From Fusobacterium varium (GTDB lineage: Bacteria > Fusobacteriota > Fusobacteriia > Fusobacteriales > Fusobacteriaceae): a DNA stretch of 64,000 nucleotides. Made by a program: the position numbers and the translations under genes. The stretch is from assembly GCA_002356455.1 (NCBI GenBank), contig AP017968.1, forward strand, positions 1,364,001 through 1,428,000. The letters are read 5' to 3'. Below the pieces are notes generated by a model that was given only the letters and a program-made list of their open reading frames with translations, was not told the origin of the DNA and did no database searches. Shown one piece after another: positions 20,484 to 30,205 of this stretch (position 1 is the first letter of the stretch; every line of letters begins with the position of its first letter).

Positions 20484-21413
20484 TTAATCTTCTCTATTTT
20501 CAAAATAATAAAAAGTATCTATTGTATCAAGATAATATCCATCAACATTTATAGAATCAAGATTTTCTTGATAATCTTTGATTATTTTTTTCCATTCATC
20601 AGTCCAGTATCTAACAATAAAATTTCCTTTCCAGTTTTTATTTTCACCTTCTATCCAGAAGGGAAGTTTTTTATTCCATTCATTTTTCCAGTAGCTTCTA
20701 TAATCTTCTGCTTCACCAATACTAAAATATGCTATTATAATTCTCTTTTCTCCTGTAGATTTATATTTTAATTTTTCTATTTGTTCTTTAGTAAAAAATG
20801 TACCATTAAGAGATGGCTCTATTATAAGAATATCATAATCAGTATTAGAAAGTACTTTAAAATATTCATTAATATCTTTGAATTTATGAGGATTAAGGAG
20901 ATAAAGAAAATTTTCTGCCTCATTTAATGAGGAAATCTCCTTTTTATTGAATCCTTTCATTGGAATATTAAAAGTATCTGCTGCAAAACTTGGAATTTCT
21001 TCTCCAATAAAATCATATTTTTTATTTTCTTTTTCAATATCTTTTCTGTTTGTTTTATTTTTGGAATAGTTTATATCAAAAACTATTTTTTCATAATCTC
21101 TGATTTGTGTAAGGTTTTTTAAAAGAGAATTTTTTTCCTGACTTGAAGTTTTTTTACCAAGCTTTCCTTCCTCACCATAAAAAAGTGATTCTTGAGATGC
21201 ACCATTTACATAGCTGAGAAACTCTAAATCAAGTTTATTATTTTTGAAGTAAATTTCACTTCCATTTTGAGTTATGATTATTTTTTCTTTATTTGTATTT
21301 AATCTTATTTCTTTTATAAGTTCTTTCATTTTTTCTCTATAATCTTCATTGGCTAAAGTTAGAGATGTAAAAGAAAAAAATAATAAGAATAAAGATACTA
21401 TATTTTTTACCAT
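20484..21413 (-). CDS. Exported GH114-like glycosidase (polygalactosaminidase type)
   Basis: A 309-residue protein with a signal peptide (about 1-21). The second half matches the GH114 TIM-barrel family: ILIIEPSLNG, then IIAYFSIGEAEDYRSYW and VDGYYLDTIDTF. GH114 enzymes include endo-alpha-1,4-polygalactosaminidases, and the hydrolase part of Pseudomonas PelA is a related fold. Pel is a partly deacetylated N-acetylgalactosamine polymer, so this fits a Pel-trimming enzyme of the periplasm or surface. It is the last gene of the operon, 12 bases after the outer-membrane protein gene. The N-terminal 130 residues are not recognised. Confidence 0.75.
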   Translation of the reverse strand: MVKNIVSLFLLFFSFTSLTLANEDYREKMKELIKEIRLNTNKEKIIITQNGSEIYFKNNKLDLEFLSYVNGASQESLFYGEEGKLGKKTSSQEKNSLLKNLTQIRDYEKIVFDINYSKNKTNRKDIEKENKKYDFIGEEIPSFAADTFNIPMKGFNKKEISSLNEAENFLYLLNPHKFKDINEYFKVLSNTDYDILIIEPSLNGTFFTKEQIEKLKYKSTGEKRIIIAYFSIGEAEDYRSYWKNEWNKKLPFWIEGENKNWKGNFIVRYWTDEWKKIIKDYQENLDSINVDGYYLDTIDTFYYFENRED

Positions 21414-21425
21414 TGTTATCTCCTA

Positions 21426-22388
21426 TTAGAAAATATATTCAATTCCAATTTTTGAATAAAAATATATCTGATCCTTAAAATTTTTATAATCTGCAGCCTT
21501 ATCTCTTGTGAATTTATATGATGGAAGTCCTATTTCCCCTATTATTCTTAATTCCGGATTAAGGTTATAACTGAAAAGAAAATGAGGATATATATACAAT
21601 TCAAGATTATAATCATCAGTAGTATTTTTAAAGTATTTGTCTGTATCTATTCCAGTATCAATGGAGAATGCCCAATTATTATTCAGCTCATAAGTCCATC
21701 TAAGAAAACTTTCAAGACCAAATCTATAGGTACCTTCATAATTATCATAGTAAAGAAATTCATTATATACTGTATTGAATAATTGAAAACCGTATCCCAT
21801 ATTGGTTGAACTTATGATATTGAATTCAACAGACCATCCATCTTTTTCTTTGCTCAATACTTTCTTTCCAATGAAATCAAAACCAAAATAAGTACCACCT
21901 TTTCCAATATTCAAAGAGGTTCTCATTCGATATCCAGCAAATAGTTTATATCTTTCTACTTCAAATCCTTTATCATCAATCTGGCTTTGCTCTAAACCCA
22001 ATATAAGACTATTGTTCCATTCTTTTTCAGCTATATCAGCAATTTTTAGAGTTTTAACAAAAGTGAATTTATTATCCCAGCCATCATATTTTTTCCTTTC
22101 ATCTTTTTTTTGTTTGTGAAATTCTTTTTCTATATTATATTCAAAATCCCATAAATTATTTATTTCAAGATATCCTTCAGCCATTTTCCATTGATAAATA
22201 TTTTTATCATTCTTAATTTCATAATCAATAGAGGTATAAAATCTATTTTTTTCTTCAACAGGAATATAAAAGTTCAAGACATCAATTCCTTTATATTTGA
22301 CAAGGCCACTGTTGTATAAATCATCTATATCTTCTGAAAAAGCAAAGGAGGAGATAATAAATAATCCTAAATATATTTTTTTTAACAT
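21426..22388 (-). CDS. Predicted outer-membrane beta-barrel protein of the Pel-type locus
   Basis: A 320-residue protein with a signal peptide (about 1-18). It has many alternating amphipathic strands rich in Tyr, Trp and Phe and ends in an aromatic residue (EYIF), the usual signal of outer-membrane barrels. I do not recognise a named family. Its place suggests it exports or anchors polymer, as the PelB porin does, but it is much shorter than PelB and shows no TPR region. The ATG overlaps the PelG stop codon by one base (TAATG), with GGAGG inside the pelG end, so translation is coupled. Confidence 0.65.
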   Translation of the reverse strand: MLKKIYLGLFIISSFAFSEDIDDLYNSGLVKYKGIDVLNFYIPVEEKNRFYTSIDYEIKNDKNIYQWKMAEGYLEINNLWDFEYNIEKEFHKQKKDERKKYDGWDNKFTFVKTLKIADIAEKEWNNSLILGLEQSQIDDKGFEVERYKLFAGYRMRTSLNIGKGGTYFGFDFIGKKVLSKEKDGWSVEFNIISSTNMGYGFQLFNTVYNEFLYYDNYEGTYRFGLESFLRWTYELNNNWAFSIDTGIDTDKYFKNTTDDYNLELYIYPHFLFSYNLNPELRIIGEIGLPSYKFTRDKAADYKNFKDQIYFYSKIGIEYIF

Positions 22389-24784
22389 TAATATCCTCCT
22401 ATATATATTCCGTCTTTATTAAATCCGTCTTTATCCATCCAGCTTCTATCTATTCCATCATTGTTTTTATCTTTTAATGGAACTTCTCCCATTTCAGAAG
22501 GTCTGTTATATTTAGTATATCCATCTCTGTCCAGCCCATCATATGTGTATCCCTTTTCATCATAGTAATCATTTGTTTTTTTATTAAGCCCATAATAGTT
22601 CCAACCATCAGAGTCAAATTCTTTTTTAGTTATTTTATGTATTCCTTCATAATCAAATCCATTTTTATCATAAGGAGAATGAGTTAAAACATTATATTTT
22701 TTAAAATCAAACCCTCTTTCATCGAATTTTTTCCCAGTATTTTTATGGATACCATTTATATCAAAACCTGAAGAATCATATTTGCTGTTTGTTTCAACAT
22801 TCCATTTATTTTTATTGAATCCTCTTCTATCAATGTTTTCTCTTGTATATCCCCTTATATTAAATCCATCTCTATCATAACCTTCTTGGTCAAATCCTTT
22901 TTCATTATAATAATCATTTGTTTTTTCATTAAGCCCATAGTAATTCCAGCCATCAGAATCAAATTCTTTCTTAGTTATTTTATGTATTCCTTCATAATCA
23001 AATCCATTTTTATCATAAAGAGAATGAGTTAAAACATTATATTTTTTAAAATCAAACCCTCTTTCATCAAATTCCTTGCCAGTATCTTTATGAATGTTTT
23101 TTATATCAAACCCTCCAGAATCATAGGGAGTATCTGTGGATTCATTCCAACCTGCAATATTAAAACCTCTGCTGTCTAAACCATTACTGTCGAATCCATA
23201 GAAATTAAATCCAGCAGGGCTATAATTACTCATTGAATGCCAGTTTCTTTTAGTAATACTATTAAACCCATTTTTATCATAACTGCTGCACCCACTTAAT
23301 AAAATAATAAGGATAAATACAACTGCAATGTATATTTTTCTCTCCATAAGTTTATCAATTAAACTTAAAAGAGGAGACCCTATTTTTAGGTTAAAATTTC
23401 TTTTAAACATTGTAATATAATTTAAATTATCGAATATTTTTTTATTAAATATATTTGCAATTCCAAAAGTAATAAATGATGAAGTAAAGAAACCAAGGCC
23501 AATATATTCTTTCCCGAGTTTTCCAAAGATATAAGAAAATATTACTCCAGTAAGAAAGAAAATAAATGCAGTAAGTACAGCATATTCTCTTGAATCAAAA
23601 TAAAGAAATATAGTTATGAAAATTGATATAAATACTGCACAGTAGGCAGAAAGGATGGTTAACCTAAAAATATCTAAAAGATAAAGGTCCAATCTTAAAT
23701 AATCAAATATCACATTAGAAACGAGAATAAAAGTAAGAGAAATAATAAATTGTAACTCTATACAATAAAGAATTTCTTTATTTAAAGTATCATACATTTT
23801 TTTTAAAGCAATATTTACCTCTCCATAAGTTCCAGTGAAAAAAATATTTTTATAATAGTTTTTATATACTGGAAGAAATTTTGTTTCCAAAAATATCATA
23901 AAATATATCATACTTGGGATAGAAGTACAAAAAGCATAAAATACAGCTACTTCATATAATGGAGAAATCAAAAAAACGTTTCCTACAAAATATGAATCAC
24001 CAAGAAACCAGTTAATTATTATATGAGACCAGACTGCAAAAGCATAAAAAAGCCCTACAAGAAACAAACTGAAATACCCTCTTAAATATGTTAAAAATTC
24101 AAAATCTCCTTTATTTTCTCCCTTAAATATTTTAAGAAGATAAAGAGAGGTAAATAAAAAATTTAAAAATATTCCTAATGTATAAGAAAACAGCATCCAA
24201 AAAATGGGAGGCTCATTTAAAAATGAAACTGGATATTTTAGAAAAATATATGCGGAAACAACAGATATTGTATTTCCTAAAAAGAAACTTTTTATCATAA
24301 AATTATAATTTTTTAAGAGCGATATAAATATCATAGTAACCCATGAAAGACTCATAGTAATAAATAATACAACAAAGGAAGCTTTATAATTTCCAGAAAA
24401 ATCACCATTTTTTATAAAGAAATAACTCATAAAAAATCCAAGGATGATTATTAATTTTACTACTCCTATATATGCTCCTCTTATTTTATATATTTTTTTA
24501 GAAAATACACAGTCTGATATATATCTTGTTATAAGATATTGAAAGGGACCTGTGAGGAGCTGTGAAAAAATAAAAGCATACAGAATGGTACTGGTATATG
24601 TTACTCTATTGGCTCTTTCAATTCCTACAGTTCCAGCTAAAAAAACTATTATATTCAAACTTATACTGGTAATTATCCAAGGACCTACACTAACAATTGA
24701 AGAGTATGCTATAGCTTTAACATCTCCAAAAGCTTTATCTTTTTCAGAAAATAATTTCCTTAATTCAAAACCTATTCCTGCCAT
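22388..24784 (-). CDS. PelG-type polysaccharide transporter with C-terminal lipobox and repeat domain
   Basis: A 798-residue protein. Residues 1 to about 475 match PelG, a 12-helix inner-membrane protein of the MOP-flippase type, opening with GIGFELRKLF and SSIVSVGPWIIT. The PelG of Pseudomonas is about 456 residues, so the match ends near residue 475. A further hydrophobic segment follows, starting M480-E-R-K and ending LLSGC (C499), which has every feature of a lipoprotein signal. Residues 500-798 are about 18-residue repeats of the pattern YDxxGFDxxGIHKxTxK. The frame is open throughout, so this is a genuine fusion at DNA level. No ribosome site precedes M480. The start at 24784 has AGGTG at the end of the pelF gene, 2 bases upstream. 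Confidence 0.85.
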   Translation of the reverse strand: MAGIGFELRKLFSEKDKAFGDVKAIAYSSIVSVGPWIITSISLNIIVFLAGTVGIERANRVTYTSTILYAFIFSQLLTGPFQYLITRYISDCVFSKKIYKIRGAYIGVVKLIIILGFFMSYFFIKNGDFSGNYKASFVVLFITMSLSWVTMIFISLLKNYNFMIKSFFLGNTISVVSAYIFLKYPVSFLNEPPIFWMLFSYTLGIFLNFLFTSLYLLKIFKGENKGDFEFLTYLRGYFSLFLVGLFYAFAVWSHIIINWFLGDSYFVGNVFLISPLYEVAVFYAFCTSIPSMIYFMIFLETKFLPVYKNYYKNIFFTGTYGEVNIALKKMYDTLNKEILYCIELQFIISLTFILVSNVIFDYLRLDLYLLDIFRLTILSAYCAVFISIFITIFLYFDSREYAVLTAFIFFLTGVIFSYIFGKLGKEYIGLGFFTSSFITFGIANIFNKKIFDNLNYITMFKRNFNLKIGSPLLSLIDKLMERKIYIAVVFILIILLSGCSSYDKNGFNSITKRNWHSMSNYSPAGFNFYGFDSNGLDSRGFNIAGWNESTDTPYDSGGFDIKNIHKDTGKEFDERGFDFKKYNVLTHSLYDKNGFDYEGIHKITKKEFDSDGWNYYGLNEKTNDYYNEKGFDQEGYDRDGFNIRGYTRENIDRRGFNKNKWNVETNSKYDSSGFDINGIHKNTGKKFDERGFDFKKYNVLTHSPYDKNGFDYEGIHKITKKEFDSDGWNYYGLNKKTNDYYDEKGYTYDGLDRDGYTKYNRPSEMGEVPLKDKNNDGIDRSWMDKDGFNKDGIYIGGY
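22552..22764 (-). repeat. Copy 1 of a 213-bp near-identical repeat in the pelG extension
   Basis: Encodes about four 18-residue units (FDERGFDFKKYNVLTHS and following). It matches 22897-23109 at a constant offset of 345 bases with scattered substitutions, indicating a recent internal duplication. Confidence 0.85.
22897..23109 (-). repeat. Copy 2 of the 213-bp repeat in the pelG extension
   Basis: The partner of 22552-22764. The differences are mostly synonymous or conservative. Confidence 0.85.
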
Positions 24785-24786
24785 TT

Positions 24787-26205
24787 TTATTCACCTAATT
24801 TTTTATATATTTCTTTATATCTATTGATATAAAAATCTTTTGTATAGTATTTTTTTACTATTATTTTTCCATTTTCAGCATATTCTTTTAATCTATTTTT
24901 ATTTTGGTATAACTTTATTAATTCTTTTCCAAGATCAGTATACGAAGTAGGTGGAATAATAACTCCAGCCTTCCCTACATCTGTCCAGCCATTAAGTATT
25001 TCTCTGCAGTTCCCTACATCAGTAGCAATAAAAGGAATGCCAGAAGCTAATCCTTCAAGTATGCTAAGGGGTTGACCTTCTGAAATAGAAGTAAGAAGAA
25101 GTAAATCAAGAAAACTATAATATTCTTTTACATCCACCCTTCCTGTAAAAATTACTTTATCAGAAAGGACAAAATCTTTAACCAGTTCCTTACATTCTTC
25201 AAAGTATTCTATATCTTCTTCATAAGGACCAACAAGCCAGAGTTTAGCCTCTGGAATTTTTTCAGAAGCTATTTTAAACCCTTTTATCATCATTTTTACA
25301 TCTTTTATAGGAACTATTCTTAAAACAGAACCTACATTGAACCCCTCTTTTTTATATTTAGGTATAGCAGAATATAATTTTTCATCAATTCCATTAGGAA
25401 TAACTACACATTTTTCAGAAGAAGCACCATTTTCAATTTGTACTTCACTATTGTATTTAAATAAAGATATAATTAAATCGCAATATTGATAAGTAAGTTT
25501 TGAAAGATAATAAAAATATTCTATCCATATACTTTTAAAATTTTTATCTATCCAATCAGCCGCCAGCACTTCTTCTTCTCTTTCTCTTGGATATATTCCA
25601 TGTTCAGTAAGAATAAGTTTGCCCATTTTTCTATGCACTGCCAATGCACCAAGATATCCTGCATATCCAGTAGAAACAGAGTGATAGATATCAGCTTCAG
25701 GTATTTTTGCCTGACCTATCTGAATCAGATTAAGAATAATATTTCTATAAGTCCAATAATAAATATTAAAATTATTATCTGGATATTTGCTGTTGTAATT
25801 TTCTATTAATACTTCCCAGTAATTTTTACCTAAAATAACTTCTAAAGGTTTTCCTATATTTGAATTAAAAACTTTTTCAATTTGCGATATTCTTTCTTGA
25901 GACTTTTCAGTAGTAAAATGAAAAAGTTCAGCAATACTTTTTTTCTTATCTTCATTAGGAAAGTAATTATTTTTGAAAACCTGAATCATAGAAAATCCTA
26001 AATAAGGATCAAGCAAAATATTTTGTATTTCTATGAGATTATTTGGAAGCTTATATTTTTGTACTGCAAATTCCTGATTTGGTATTATACAGAGCAGTTT
26101 AAACTTATGCTCAGGGTTTGAAGTGATAAGTTCATGTACCCAAGAAGAAACGCCACCTACAACATAAGGGTAGGCTCCCTCGCATATTATACATATAACA
26201 GACAT
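24787..26205 (-). CDS. PelF-type glycosyltransferase (GT4 family)
   Basis: A 472-residue cytoplasmic glycosyltransferase. The N terminus has CEGAYPYVVGGVSSWVHELI, the hallmark of PelF. The second Rossmann domain holds VPNGID, LRIVPIKD and the E-x7-E motif in SISEGQPLSILEG. PelF polymerises UDP-activated N-acetylhexosamine to build Pel. I chose the start at 26205 because AAAGGA is at proper spacing; an upstream in-frame codon at 26235 would overlap pelE. It lies 13 bases after the pelE-like gene and 2 bases before the pelG-like gene. Confidence 0.88.
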   Translation of the reverse strand: MSVICIICEGAYPYVVGGVSSWVHELITSNPEHKFKLLCIIPNQEFAVQKYKLPNNLIEIQNILLDPYLGFSMIQVFKNNYFPNEDKKKSIAELFHFTTEKSQERISQIEKVFNSNIGKPLEVILGKNYWEVLIENYNSKYPDNNFNIYYWTYRNIILNLIQIGQAKIPEADIYHSVSTGYAGYLGALAVHRKMGKLILTEHGIYPREREEEVLAADWIDKNFKSIWIEYFYYLSKLTYQYCDLIISLFKYNSEVQIENGASSEKCVVIPNGIDEKLYSAIPKYKKEGFNVGSVLRIVPIKDVKMMIKGFKIASEKIPEAKLWLVGPYEEDIEYFEECKELVKDFVLSDKVIFTGRVDVKEYYSFLDLLLLTSISEGQPLSILEGLASGIPFIATDVGNCREILNGWTDVGKAGVIIPPTSYTDLGKELIKLYQNKNRLKEYAENGKIIVKKYYTKDFYINRYKEIYKKLGE

Positions 26206-26218
26206 TTTTATTTCCTTT

Positions 26219-27157
26219 CTAGAATGATTTTTCAAAATTGTTAAAGAGAGCAGGAAGCTTTATATCAAATTCTTTATATTTGTTATGAACAGCTAACATA
26301 TCTCTAAATCTATTTTCATTGTATAAAAATTGCATTAATTTTTCTACAAGAGTTTTTGAAGCATTATCAATTAAAAGTTTGTTTAATAGTTCTTCATATT
26401 TAAGTTTTTCATCTATTTTATTATATAATTCCAAGAGTTCATACTCATATTTTTTATCTTTTTTTACTAATTTGAGAAGAATAGAAAGAGTCTTTTTCTG
26501 ATAGAATTCTAAAATAGATTCAAATAAGAGCCCTGAATTTATGTATTTTTGATAAGCAGTATATATTTCATAAAGATTTTCATTTTTTTCAGCTCTTTTT
26601 ATATCTTCTTGAAGCCGCACATCAATTTTGTTTAATTCAGTAGCTGCATAATGAATAACATCTATATCATCATCTAATAAAGCTTTTTGAAGTATTTCTA
26701 CTTTAAAACTTATGTTTGGTGGATTAAATTCAAAAAGAAATTTTTTCTTTTCTTCAGAATTTTTGATAAAGAGTGAATCATATGCTCCAACTGTATTTAT
26801 GTCTATATAAAAATTAATAAACTCCTCCTCTTGCTTTTCCCTTTTATACATCTCTAAACTGTATGATTCTTCAATATTATTTTCAATATCTTTTTTCATA
26901 TCAAATAACTTGTCAAGTACCATTATAAAAAAGCCAAGTCCAGGAAAAAATATTATAAACACATCATAATATCCAATATCCATTTTAAAGATAAAATAAG
27001 AATTAAATATATAAATAAGTGATATAGAAAAATGCATCAACCAAAATGTACTTCTTAAGTTTATATAGATACTTGAAGTATAATTGTAATAGAAGTTAAT
27101 GATCTCAAGGCTAAAAAAGAAAATTAATATTAAAAGATTTACTGTTTTATTTTTCAT
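26219..27157 (-). CDS. PelE-like inner-membrane protein with helical repeats
   Basis: A 312-residue protein. Two to three membrane helices lie in the first 90 residues, followed by a cytoplasmic all-helical region (about 110-312) resembling TPR-like repeats. This architecture, together with its position just before pelF and pelG, matches PelE, a membrane partner in the Pel synthase complex. Sequence similarity alone is weak; the call rests on architecture and context. It overlaps the deacetylase gene by four bases (ATGA), with AGGAG before its start. Confidence 0.65.
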   Translation of the reverse strand: MKNKTVNLLILIFFFSLEIINFYYNYTSSIYINLRSTFWLMHFSISLIYIFNSYFIFKMDIGYYDVFIIFFPGLGFFIMVLDKLFDMKKDIENNIEESYSLEMYKREKQEEEFINFYIDINTVGAYDSLFIKNSEEKKKFLFEFNPPNISFKVEILQKALLDDDIDVIHYAATELNKIDVRLQEDIKRAEKNENLYEIYTAYQKYINSGLLFESILEFYQKKTLSILLKLVKKDKKYEYELLELYNKIDEKLKYEELLNKLLIDNASKTLVEKLMQFLYNENRFRDMLAVHNKYKEFDIKLPALFNNFEKSF

Positions 27158-28998
27158 TTTTTTTCTCCTGTTTTTTTAGCTAATTTAATAATAGTATCTT
27201 GATTTATAAATTTTATGAGATAAATATTATTATTTTTATATCTATTAACAAGTCTATATTCACCTGAAGAAATTGATTTTATATCATTATTTCTTATCCT
27301 TACAAGAGCAGAAAAAGGTTTTCTGAAATTATCTATTCCTATTTTAAGAGTATTATTGTCTTGTTCTGAATATATTTTTATATCCTCCATATTTATATAT
27401 TTTTGAGTGAGCCCTGAATTAGTAGAAGGTTCAAAATAGGGAAATCTTTTTTCAACTTCTAATATCATAGCTTCGAATTCTTTATAAAGTTGGCTCCAGT
27501 CTTTTCCAAATCCTCTGTCATCAGAAATAATATCATCAGGATGGACAAAGTGAGACATATAACCATAAATTGCAATTGCATTAAATATTCCCCATAAATC
27601 ATCCTTATCATAAAAAAAACCAGAAGAAAAACGCGGCATTGTATAAATAGAAGGGAATTCATCATCTTTTCCAATTTCTGTAATAAAAGCTCCTTTTTCC
27701 TCATCTCCATAAAATAATGAAGATATAGTTTTTAAATTTGGAAAAGATTTCAAAAGAATTTCTTTTCCTCTATTTTTTAAAATATTGCTTGGTGGAACAT
27801 ATGAATATAATTTTACATTTTTACCTAAAAGTTCTTCAACTGTAAGGGAAACATTTTTAAGTCCAGCTGCTATATCTGAGTCATTTTCCCAAGGGACATA
27901 ATTTAAGGCCTTGAAATCTGTATCTCCTTCAAAGACCAAAGGATCATGGTTATATCCATGAATTCCTAATTCTCCCTGATTAAGAAGAAGCTCTCTGGCT
28001 CTTTTATCAAGATCCAATAGAGTAATTTTAGGAATTTCTTTCATATCAGAACTATGAACATTATTATTGTAATCTATTATTATGAAACCTGAGTAAATAA
28101 GATTTCTTCTCTCAGCAAGAGCCACCATATCTTTCCACCAAATTTTATTAAAAAAATCACCAGTATCCATTCCATAACTTTTTCTGATAATTTCATTTTC
28201 ATACCTTGGAACAGGAGATGGGAAATCATCAATATGTATTAATTTACTATTTAAAATAGGATTGATATACCAATCACTTCCATAAGAAATAATTTGGTTC
28301 ATTACCCCTCTGACTATATTAGCTTCAAAAAAATTTGAATTTGTATAAATTATTTTTCCATTTCCAAAATCATTTTCCCATATAAGAGGTAAATTATTAT
28401 TTGTTTCAGCAAGAATATTAACTTTTTCATCCAGTTCTACATTGAGGACTGAACTAGATACCATAGTATTTCCAGGACTGAAGGAATCAATTCCTGGGAA
28501 AATTTTTTCTTTAAAATTAACTCCATGTTCATTATCAGAAAAATCATTTATTTTACTTATTCCTGATATTTTATTAAAAGGATTGTATTCTGTATTGGCT
28601 AAAATAAATATAGTTCCTCCTTGAGATGAAATTTTTTCTTTTATATTTTCAAAAATTATTTTTTTAAAACCTAAAAAATCATCTGTTGCAAATATAAAAT
28701 AATCATATTTTGAAGTGTCAGGAACAGCAGTAATATCTGCAATATCAAACTGAACTTTTGTAAATTCAAAAGTTTTTCTTAAATTATATAAAATATTTTT
28801 AGATAATGTAGATGAAGGATTATAAAAAATAAGATATCTTTGAGGATGTTCAAAAATTAATGAAGTATTTTTAGCTGAGGATTTTTTAAATGAAAATTCT
28901 TGTTTTACAGAAAAGTACTTTCCTTTATCCATGATTCTATTAAATTGTAAGATTCCAGCTACCAGAAGTATAATGATGAAAAAATATTTAAATTTCAT
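27154..28998 (-). CDS. DUF2194 protein, Pel-type polysaccharide deacetylase
   Basis: A 614-residue protein with one N-terminal membrane helix or uncleaved signal (about 4-22), so it faces the periplasm. It carries the deacetylase signatures H255-I-D257-D258 and H347-x3-H351 (IHGYNHDP), plus a later HFVHPDD. DUF2194 proteins take the place of the PelA deacetylase in Pel loci of Gram-positive bacteria. The expected role is N-deacetylation of the GalNAc polymer. It overlaps the pelD-like gene by 11 bases and the pelE-like gene by 4. The C-terminal 100 residues look like a beta-rich carbohydrate-binding or packing domain. Confidence 0.8.
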   Translation of the reverse strand: MKFKYFFIIILLVAGILQFNRIMDKGKYFSVKQEFSFKKSSAKNTSLIFEHPQRYLIFYNPSSTLSKNILYNLRKTFEFTKVQFDIADITAVPDTSKYDYFIFATDDFLGFKKIIFENIKEKISSQGGTIFILANTEYNPFNKISGISKINDFSDNEHGVNFKEKIFPGIDSFSPGNTMVSSSVLNVELDEKVNILAETNNNLPLIWENDFGNGKIIYTNSNFFEANIVRGVMNQIISYGSDWYINPILNSKLIHIDDFPSPVPRYENEIIRKSYGMDTGDFFNKIWWKDMVALAERRNLIYSGFIIIDYNNNVHSSDMKEIPKITLLDLDKRARELLLNQGELGIHGYNHDPLVFEGDTDFKALNYVPWENDSDIAAGLKNVSLTVEELLGKNVKLYSYVPPSNILKNRGKEILLKSFPNLKTISSLFYGDEEKGAFITEIGKDDEFPSIYTMPRFSSGFFYDKDDLWGIFNAIAIYGYMSHFVHPDDIISDDRGFGKDWSQLYKEFEAMILEVEKRFPYFEPSTNSGLTQKYINMEDIKIYSEQDNNTLKIGIDNFRKPFSALVRIRNNDIKSISSGEYRLVNRYKNNNIYLIKFINQDTIIKLAKKTGEKK

Positions 28999-30205
28999 AG
29001 AACTCTACCTCTTTAAAATAATCCTCAATTTTATTTTTTAGCATATCTTTTTTACTGTAATCAGTCATTGTAAATAAAAATCTTATATATTTTTCATTGA
29101 AAGTAACATAATCATTTCCCCATAATTTACCTTTAAGAATATTAAAAATATTTTCAGAGGTATATCCAGGATTTTTTCCTTCAAATAATATATAATTATG
29201 ATTAAAAAGTTTTTTTCTTCTTTCATTCTCTTCAACAATTGTATTAAAATAGTCCCATTTAGAAATATTCATATCTTCTATGTAATAGTGATCATTTTTT
29301 TCTGCTTCAACTTTTTCAAAAATTGACACTAAAGCATCTTTTAATTCTTCAGTTACAATTTTAAATAATTCAAACGAATATCTTTCTTTAACATTGAAAT
29401 TAAGTTTTTCAATATTTAAAAATCCAGTTATTTTATCTTTAATAAAAATAGGAGAAATATAGACAGGCTGCTGTGCATCTAAATCAACAGGAAATTCCAT
29501 TGTTTCTTTTGTTTTTATTACTTCATTAAATCTGCTGCCATCTTTAGAATTTAATGAAATAAAAGAAGACATATTACTGTTACCAAATTTTAAAATATTT
29601 TTAATATGTATAGAATCAACCATTATATATATGGAAACGGTTTCACAATTTAGAAATTGTTTTAAAATTAACATTACTTCTGTATAGAGTTGTTCAAGTG
29701 TTTTATCTTTCAGAGAACGTTTTATGTGATAGAGAGTAATTAGACTCTCTCGACTATTGACAATTTGATTTTTAAGCTTAGTACTTAAAATAATGAGTTC
29801 CATATTTTTATTTTTCTGTTCTGAATATTTTTCCTCAAGTTCAGTTTTTTCTTCAGTTAATTTTTCTTCTCTTTCACTATAATTTATTTTAAATTTTCCA
29901 AGGAGCACATTTATAAATAAAAACATAAGAAAGAATTTATAGTATTGAAACTTTAAAAAGAAAAGAAGCAGATCATTACCATTGAAAAGATAAGCTGTTA
30001 TATAAGTGATAATTGCTGCAATAGAGCCTATAAATCCGATATAAGTTCCATATTTTAATGCCAAAAATGCTACCATTATTGCTAATGGATGAAGATTCAT
30101 AGTAAGAAAATCATATTTTACAGTGCTAAAAGTATAAAATATAAGGTATATAGCAATTGAATATACCAAACTTTCTAAACTACAATAAATTATTTTTTTA
30201 TTCAT
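28988..30205 (-). CDS. PelD-like membrane protein: TM helices, coiled coil, GAF, degenerate GGDEF
   Basis: A 405-residue protein, first gene of the operon. About four membrane helices (1-105) are followed by a charged coiled coil (110-150), a GAF domain (about 160-300) and a C-terminal degenerate GGDEF fold (about 310-400) without the catalytic loop. This is the layout of PelD, the receptor that switches on Pel synthesis when c-di-GMP binds the RxxD site. Here the matching residues are W362-G-N-D365, so the arginine is missing. The ligand, if any, may differ. The start at 30205 has AGGAG. No clear promoter is seen upstream. Confidence 0.8.
   Translation of the reverse strand: MNKKIIYCSLESLVYSIAIYLIFYTFSTVKYDFLTMNLHPLAIMVAFLALKYGTYIGFIGSIAAIITYITAYLFNGNDLLLFFLKFQYYKFFLMFLFINVLLGKFKINYSEREEKLTEEKTELEEKYSEQKNKNMELIILSTKLKNQIVNSRESLITLYHIKRSLKDKTLEQLYTEVMLILKQFLNCETVSIYIMVDSIHIKNILKFGNSNMSSFISLNSKDGSRFNEVIKTKETMEFPVDLDAQQPVYISPIFIKDKITGFLNIEKLNFNVKERYSFELFKIVTEELKDALVSIFEKVEAEKNDHYYIEDMNISKWDYFNTIVEENERRKKLFNHNYILFEGKNPGYTSENIFNILKGKLWGNDYVTFNEKYIRFLFTMTDYSKKDMLKNKIEDYFKEVEFYEI

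Follow-up and report, generated by a model that had tools for sequence, protein, structure and literature searches.

The window, a stretch of 64,000 nucleotides from Fusobacterium varium, carries a pel operon at positions 20484-30205, in which PelD-, DUF2194-, PelE-, PelF- and GH114-type genes and a β-barrel gene occur in conserved order, all on the minus strand. PelF, a glycosyltransferase (24787..26235), was retrieved with the NCBIfam profile NF038011 (E 2.3e-108). The DUF2194 protein (27154..28998; Pfam PF09960, E 2e-98) is, with its conserved order, the probable counterpart of the PelA deacetylase, and the GH114 protein (20484..21413; Pfam PF03537, E 1.3e-11) the probable counterpart of the PelA hydrolase. 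The PelE-like (26219..27157; order kept in 20 or more loci) and PelD-like (28988..30205) proteins have no Pfam match and were assigned by position. Neither pelC nor a TPR-type pelB was found in this operon. The outer membrane β-barrel (21426..22388) was modelled by AlphaFold with a mean pLDDT of 87.4. In structure comparisons its nearest matches were CymA and OmpG (Z about 18); the similarity to the PelBC entry 9h80 (Z 13.9) is at a level common to many barrels. The barrel ATG overlaps the stop codon of the upstream gene by one base.

This upstream gene (22388-24784, minus strand) is a single open reading frame of 798 aa without internal stops, in which pelG is fused to a lipoprotein. Residues 1-458 (23411..24784, minus strand) form the exporter domain, with a PF16933 score of 405.7 bits (E 3.5e-121) against a curated cut-off of 29. 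By its profile, its 12 helices and its pelF neighbour, the fused protein belongs to the PelG family, although Pel transport itself is inferred. Hydropathy detected one extra helix, at residues 484-502. Lysine and arginine residues number 30 in the 'in' loops vs 9 in the 'out' loops, a positive-inside distribution by which PelG ends in the cytoplasm and the repeats that follow lie outside. The initial annotation had described a frame running unbroken from PelG through M480-E-R-K, a hydrophobic stretch and LLSGC499 into a repeat domain, and all of this held.

The extra helix (helix 13) is part of an internal lipoprotein signal (residues 480-498, MERKIYIAVVFILIILLSG; 23291..23347, minus strand), recognized by hydropathy, the PS51257 lipobox pattern and the absence of a ribosome site before M480. 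Residues 480-499 read MERKIYIAVVFILIILLSGC; the segment VFILIILLSGC matches PS51257, and every element of a lipoprotein signal is present, namely positive charge, hydrophobic core and lipobox. The lipobox LLSGC spans residues 495-499 (23288..23302, minus strand), Cys499 being encoded by TGC at 23288-23290. LspA is predicted from the sequence to cut between Gly498 and Cys499; cleavage has not been shown. Members of the lipoprotein family carry this signal at the N-terminus. Here it lies at residues 480-499 without a ribosome site, and we therefore classify the protein as a lipoprotein variant rather than a plain member. The source genome encodes Lgt, LspA and a LolC/E-like protein, the last with a match that is strong yet below its curated cut-off. 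Residue +2 after Cys499 is serine, and none of the aligned lipoproteins has aspartate at this position. According to the E. coli sorting rule, lipoproteins with a residue other than aspartate at +2 go to the outer membrane. By this rule a released lipoprotein would likely be located there, although the location is inferred.

The mature lipoprotein (22391..23290, minus strand) is a 300-aa repeat domain, modelled with a mean pLDDT of 87.5. It is built of 18-aa units and G-aromatic-D quintets, which form a super-repeat of 115 residues (49% identity when shifted by that length; DNA period 345). Its sequence profile matched no PDB chain at E values up to 1, and Foldseek retrieved no structural match for the model, so the fold cannot be named. 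A relation to PelC has no other support or refutation than these searches, no PelC model having been compared directly. A PelC-like acidic charge was rejected as a common property of the domain, whose pI spans 4.7 to 8.8.

We surveyed 98 genomes of Fusobacteriota, applying the Pfam cut-off. PelG was detected in 24 of them, with 24 full-length copies, 18 of which are intact in-frame PelG-repeat fusions from 17 species, including Propionigenium maris, a Cetobacterium and Leptotrichiaceae. The other 17 share 44-61% identity with the fusion in the window. PelG had been expected to end at about residue 456. This is true in Pseudomonadota, where it stops shortly past helix 12, whereas every intact PelG found in Fusobacteriota runs further. 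Four copies, all from a single genus (g13; L063-L066), are split: the gene for the repeat lipoprotein begins 22 nt after pelG, preceded by a Shine-Dalgarno of its own (GGAAGTG), and its product has an N-terminal lipobox. The initial annotation proposed to check relatives for a lipoprotein encoded separately, and the outcome is thus positive for one sister genus. The split PelGs retain helix 13 but lack the lipobox. The 18 fusions group together in a single clade of the PelG tree (support 99), with the split genus as its sister (99). Outside both lies a third form from a related genus (L067:10142-13237 and L068:4201-7359), two copies of PelG fused to an asparagine-rich stretch and a barrel-like domain with a terminal phenylalanine; their operons contain no separate barrel or repeat gene. 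Such a chain of inner membrane exporter and barrel would have to be cut or to span the periplasm.

The pel operon is patchily distributed, with pelG in just two of the 12 species of the window's genus, and one genome (G064) has two pelG copies. In another (G049; L062:6209-8904) pelG is frameshifted while the repeat part is still open, through either decay or an assembly error. The PelG of Candidatus Mcinerneyibacterium (L076:4001-5398) continues into a 13th helix and a short tail and has no lipobox; it is possible that helix 13 is older than the fusion.

A second fusion was found in Bacillales. A contig search of named genomes retrieved 80 loci when a PelG alignment was used as query, and none with a single PelG protein. 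Eighteen PelGs of Paenibacillus, Cohnella, Brevibacillus and relatives carry about 580 extra residues after a lipobox. These residues form a CotH domain (PF08757, E about 1e-60), unrelated to the fusobacterial repeats. PelG stands alone at a further 15 Bacillota loci, where the adjoining gene encodes CotH; 11 of these neighbours have a lipobox and four are anchored by a plain helix. The fused Bacillales PelGs form one clade (99) beside the split ones, and there is little doubt that PelG was joined to a lipobox independently here, with CotH as cargo. If a polyprotein is expected to have its parts encoded separately in relatives, both the split fusobacterial genus (L063-L066) and the unfused Bacillota meet this expectation.

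The cutting site is conserved in both phyla. The junction cysteine is present in 16 of the 18 intact fusobacterial fusions and in all 18 from Bacillales. When junctions were aligned on the cysteine, the fusobacterial helix 13 had a mean column identity of 0.26, against 1.00 for Cys (a value that covers only the 16 fusions holding it), 0.68 at -1 and 0.57 at -3. In Bacillales the corresponding values are 0.18 for the helix, 1.00 for Cys, 0.61 at -1 and 0.69 at -3. The raised positions coincide exactly with those of the lipobox. PS51257 matched 31 out of 36 junctions, compared with 15 matches in PelG domains totalling 46,276 residues, and among 765 ORFs of the fetched loci the PelG junction accounted for 27 of the 31 internal matches. 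Helix 13 has thus drifted in two phyla while Cys, -1 and -3 were held, which demonstrates selection on the lipobox of the fused protein and points to lipidation and LspA cleavage as what is selected; cleavage itself remains an inference.

The cysteine is missing from two intact Leptotrichiaceae fusions and from the frameshifted copy. At the same place, these three have sites resembling those of signal peptidase I (GGKANA|AYD, GGKIKA|STYD and GSAKAHA|AYD), although alanine makes up only about 1% of the mature domain, and in two of their relatives (G054 and G091) Cys and HA|A are both present. Since the lipobox is either kept or swapped for a signal peptidase I site, it is the cutting site that is conserved.

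Whether the lipoprotein could also be made by internal initiation depends on the lineage. M480 of the window lacks a Shine-Dalgarno (-0.7 kcal/mol vs -8.3 at the pelG start) and was rejected as the start of a second gene. There is no methionine at the equivalent position in 15 of the 18 fusions, and in G063 no in-frame ATG, GTG or TTG occurs from 50 to 9 codons before the cysteine. Given the missing start codon in G063 and the missing ribosome site in the window, the lipobox must serve the fusion there, and in these two species the sequences make the fusion the most likely sole source of the lipoprotein. In all five Leptotrichiaceae, a GGAGG-type Shine-Dalgarno (-9.3 to -13.2 kcal/mol) lies a few bases before an internal start at about residue 473, consisting of TTG (four genes) or GTG (one) and two lysine codons (L049, L046, L048, L050 and L062). 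TTG makes up 8-18% of the leucine codons of the four genes that start with it, and GTG 27% of the valine codons of the fifth. These five are kin and count as fewer than five independent observations. A nested lipoprotein start is likely in this family, as inferred from sequence. A weak version of the signal was found in G008, and no consistent internal ribosome site was detected in the Bacillales fusions. The initial annotation took the missing ribosome site as an argument against a second gene, which holds in the window and fails in Leptotrichiaceae.

We consider it likely (probability about 0.7) that the fused protein is a polyprotein which Lgt lipidates and LspA cleaves into PelG and a lipoprotein. 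In this view, PelG would insert into the membrane, helix 13 would cross it from inside to outside and act as a type II signal peptide within the chain, and the repeat domain would be exported behind it. Lgt would lipidate Cys499 and LspA would cut at Gly498/Cys499. PelG with all 13 helices would stay behind in the inner membrane, and for each PelG one lipoprotein, of about 35 kDa, would be released. This lipoprotein may move to the outer membrane and work with the adjoining barrel in Pel export. The lipidation, cleavage and equal amounts of both products suggested in the initial annotation are thus supported by comparison and unproven as to cleavage, and its term 'self-splitting' is not quite right, as Lgt and LspA would be needed. 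Biochemical evidence for cleavage is lacking, and the literature searched gave no example of LspA cleaving downstream of a polytopic protein; LspA may therefore not reach the site. It is also possible that in Leptotrichiaceae the signal is retained for the internally initiated product.

Alternatively, the protein could remain uncut, with helix 13 anchoring the repeats on PelG at the exporter mouth, where they would handle polysaccharide in the periplasm. Helix 13 occurs without a lipobox in the split PelGs and in Mcinerneyibacterium and so may have a role of its own in PelG; four separate CotH neighbours are held by a plain helix; and a related genus joins PelG to a barrel-like domain through an asparagine-rich linker. 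However, a tether would work without a cysteine, whereas in two phyla Cys, -1 and -3 are much better conserved than the other positions of helix 13, and where Cys is lost the site becomes one of the signal peptidase I type. Such a tether, which the initial annotation also considered, cannot be excluded from sequence alone, but we regard it as unlikely.

A nested gene, in which a ribosome start inside pelG gives an ordinary lipoprotein and the fusion is a by-product, is favoured by the strong Shine-Dalgarno, the TTG or GTG and the two lysine codons of all five Leptotrichiaceae, where this explanation is likely. It is opposed by the lack of a ribosome site at M480, the lack of methionine there in most fusions, the absence of an in-frame start in G063 and the inconsistent internal sites of Bacillales, which make it very unlikely overall. 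An artefact of sequencing or assembly, or a strain-specific fusion, had been named as the finding that would refute the proposal. Nothing was found to support it, although the pelG of one relative (G049) is indeed frameshifted, and the 17 further intact fusions, conserved at considerable divergence, all but exclude it.

In Pseudomonas aeruginosa, as in the window, a PelG family protein, an adjoining PelF, and an outer membrane barrel and lipoprotein belong to the operon. PelC is there an essential lipoprotein forming a ring of twelve copies, a hallmark of Gram-negative Pel systems (PMC12141448). In contrast, the lipoprotein of the window is fused to PelG and has no sequence match to solved structures, and the CymA/OmpG-like barrel lacks the TPR part of PelB. 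Replacement of PelC and PelB by this lipoprotein and barrel is inferred, and we put it forward only tentatively, the evidence falling short of making it the better bet. It would suggest a route for Pel to the outer membrane in Gram-negative bacteria without a recognizable PelC. Gram-positive Pel operons (PMC7112168; Streptococcus intermedius SIR_1594, PMC12345266) also encode a secreted or lipid-anchored protein right after pelG, but its CotH kinase-like domain is unrelated to the fusobacterial repeats. In these reports cotH is a separate gene, and no fusion is described in the sections bearing on it.

Precursors that join a polytopic protein to an exported one are known. Bradyrhizobium FbcH, the precursor of cytochromes b and c1, is split by signal peptidase at an internal signal. 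That case involves signal peptidase I and a cytochrome, whereas the lipobox of the fused PelG calls for Lgt and signal peptidase II. A normally separate, lipid-anchored binding protein is fused to its membrane partner in ABC importers such as OpuA. That fusion stays uncut, while in the PelG fusions the lipobox is strictly kept. We found no report of internal lipoboxes or PelG fusions in the literature searched. Lipoprotein signals are sought at N-termini, so proteins of this kind escape standard lipoprotein counts. If LspA does cut a protein that begins as a 12-helix transporter, it accepts a wider range of substrates than is taught, and the last helix of a membrane protein can give rise to a lipoprotein. 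A bolder reading, towards which the balance tips slightly, is that LspA-cut polyproteins made of PelG and a lipoprotein form a recurrent class. The class would have arisen at least twice with unrelated cargo, supplying exporter and envelope partner one to one, with Leptotrichiaceae shifting to a signal peptidase I version and a nested start.

The repeat module also occurs outside PelG. In other Fusobacteriota (L017, L027, L030, L044 and L070) it is found in separate lipoproteins with N-terminal signals, and at L070, the only one of these loci whose flanks were read, the gene is distant from pel genes. At L069:8463-11201, the module forms the N-terminus of an apparently cytoplasmic AAA/UvrD-like helicase.
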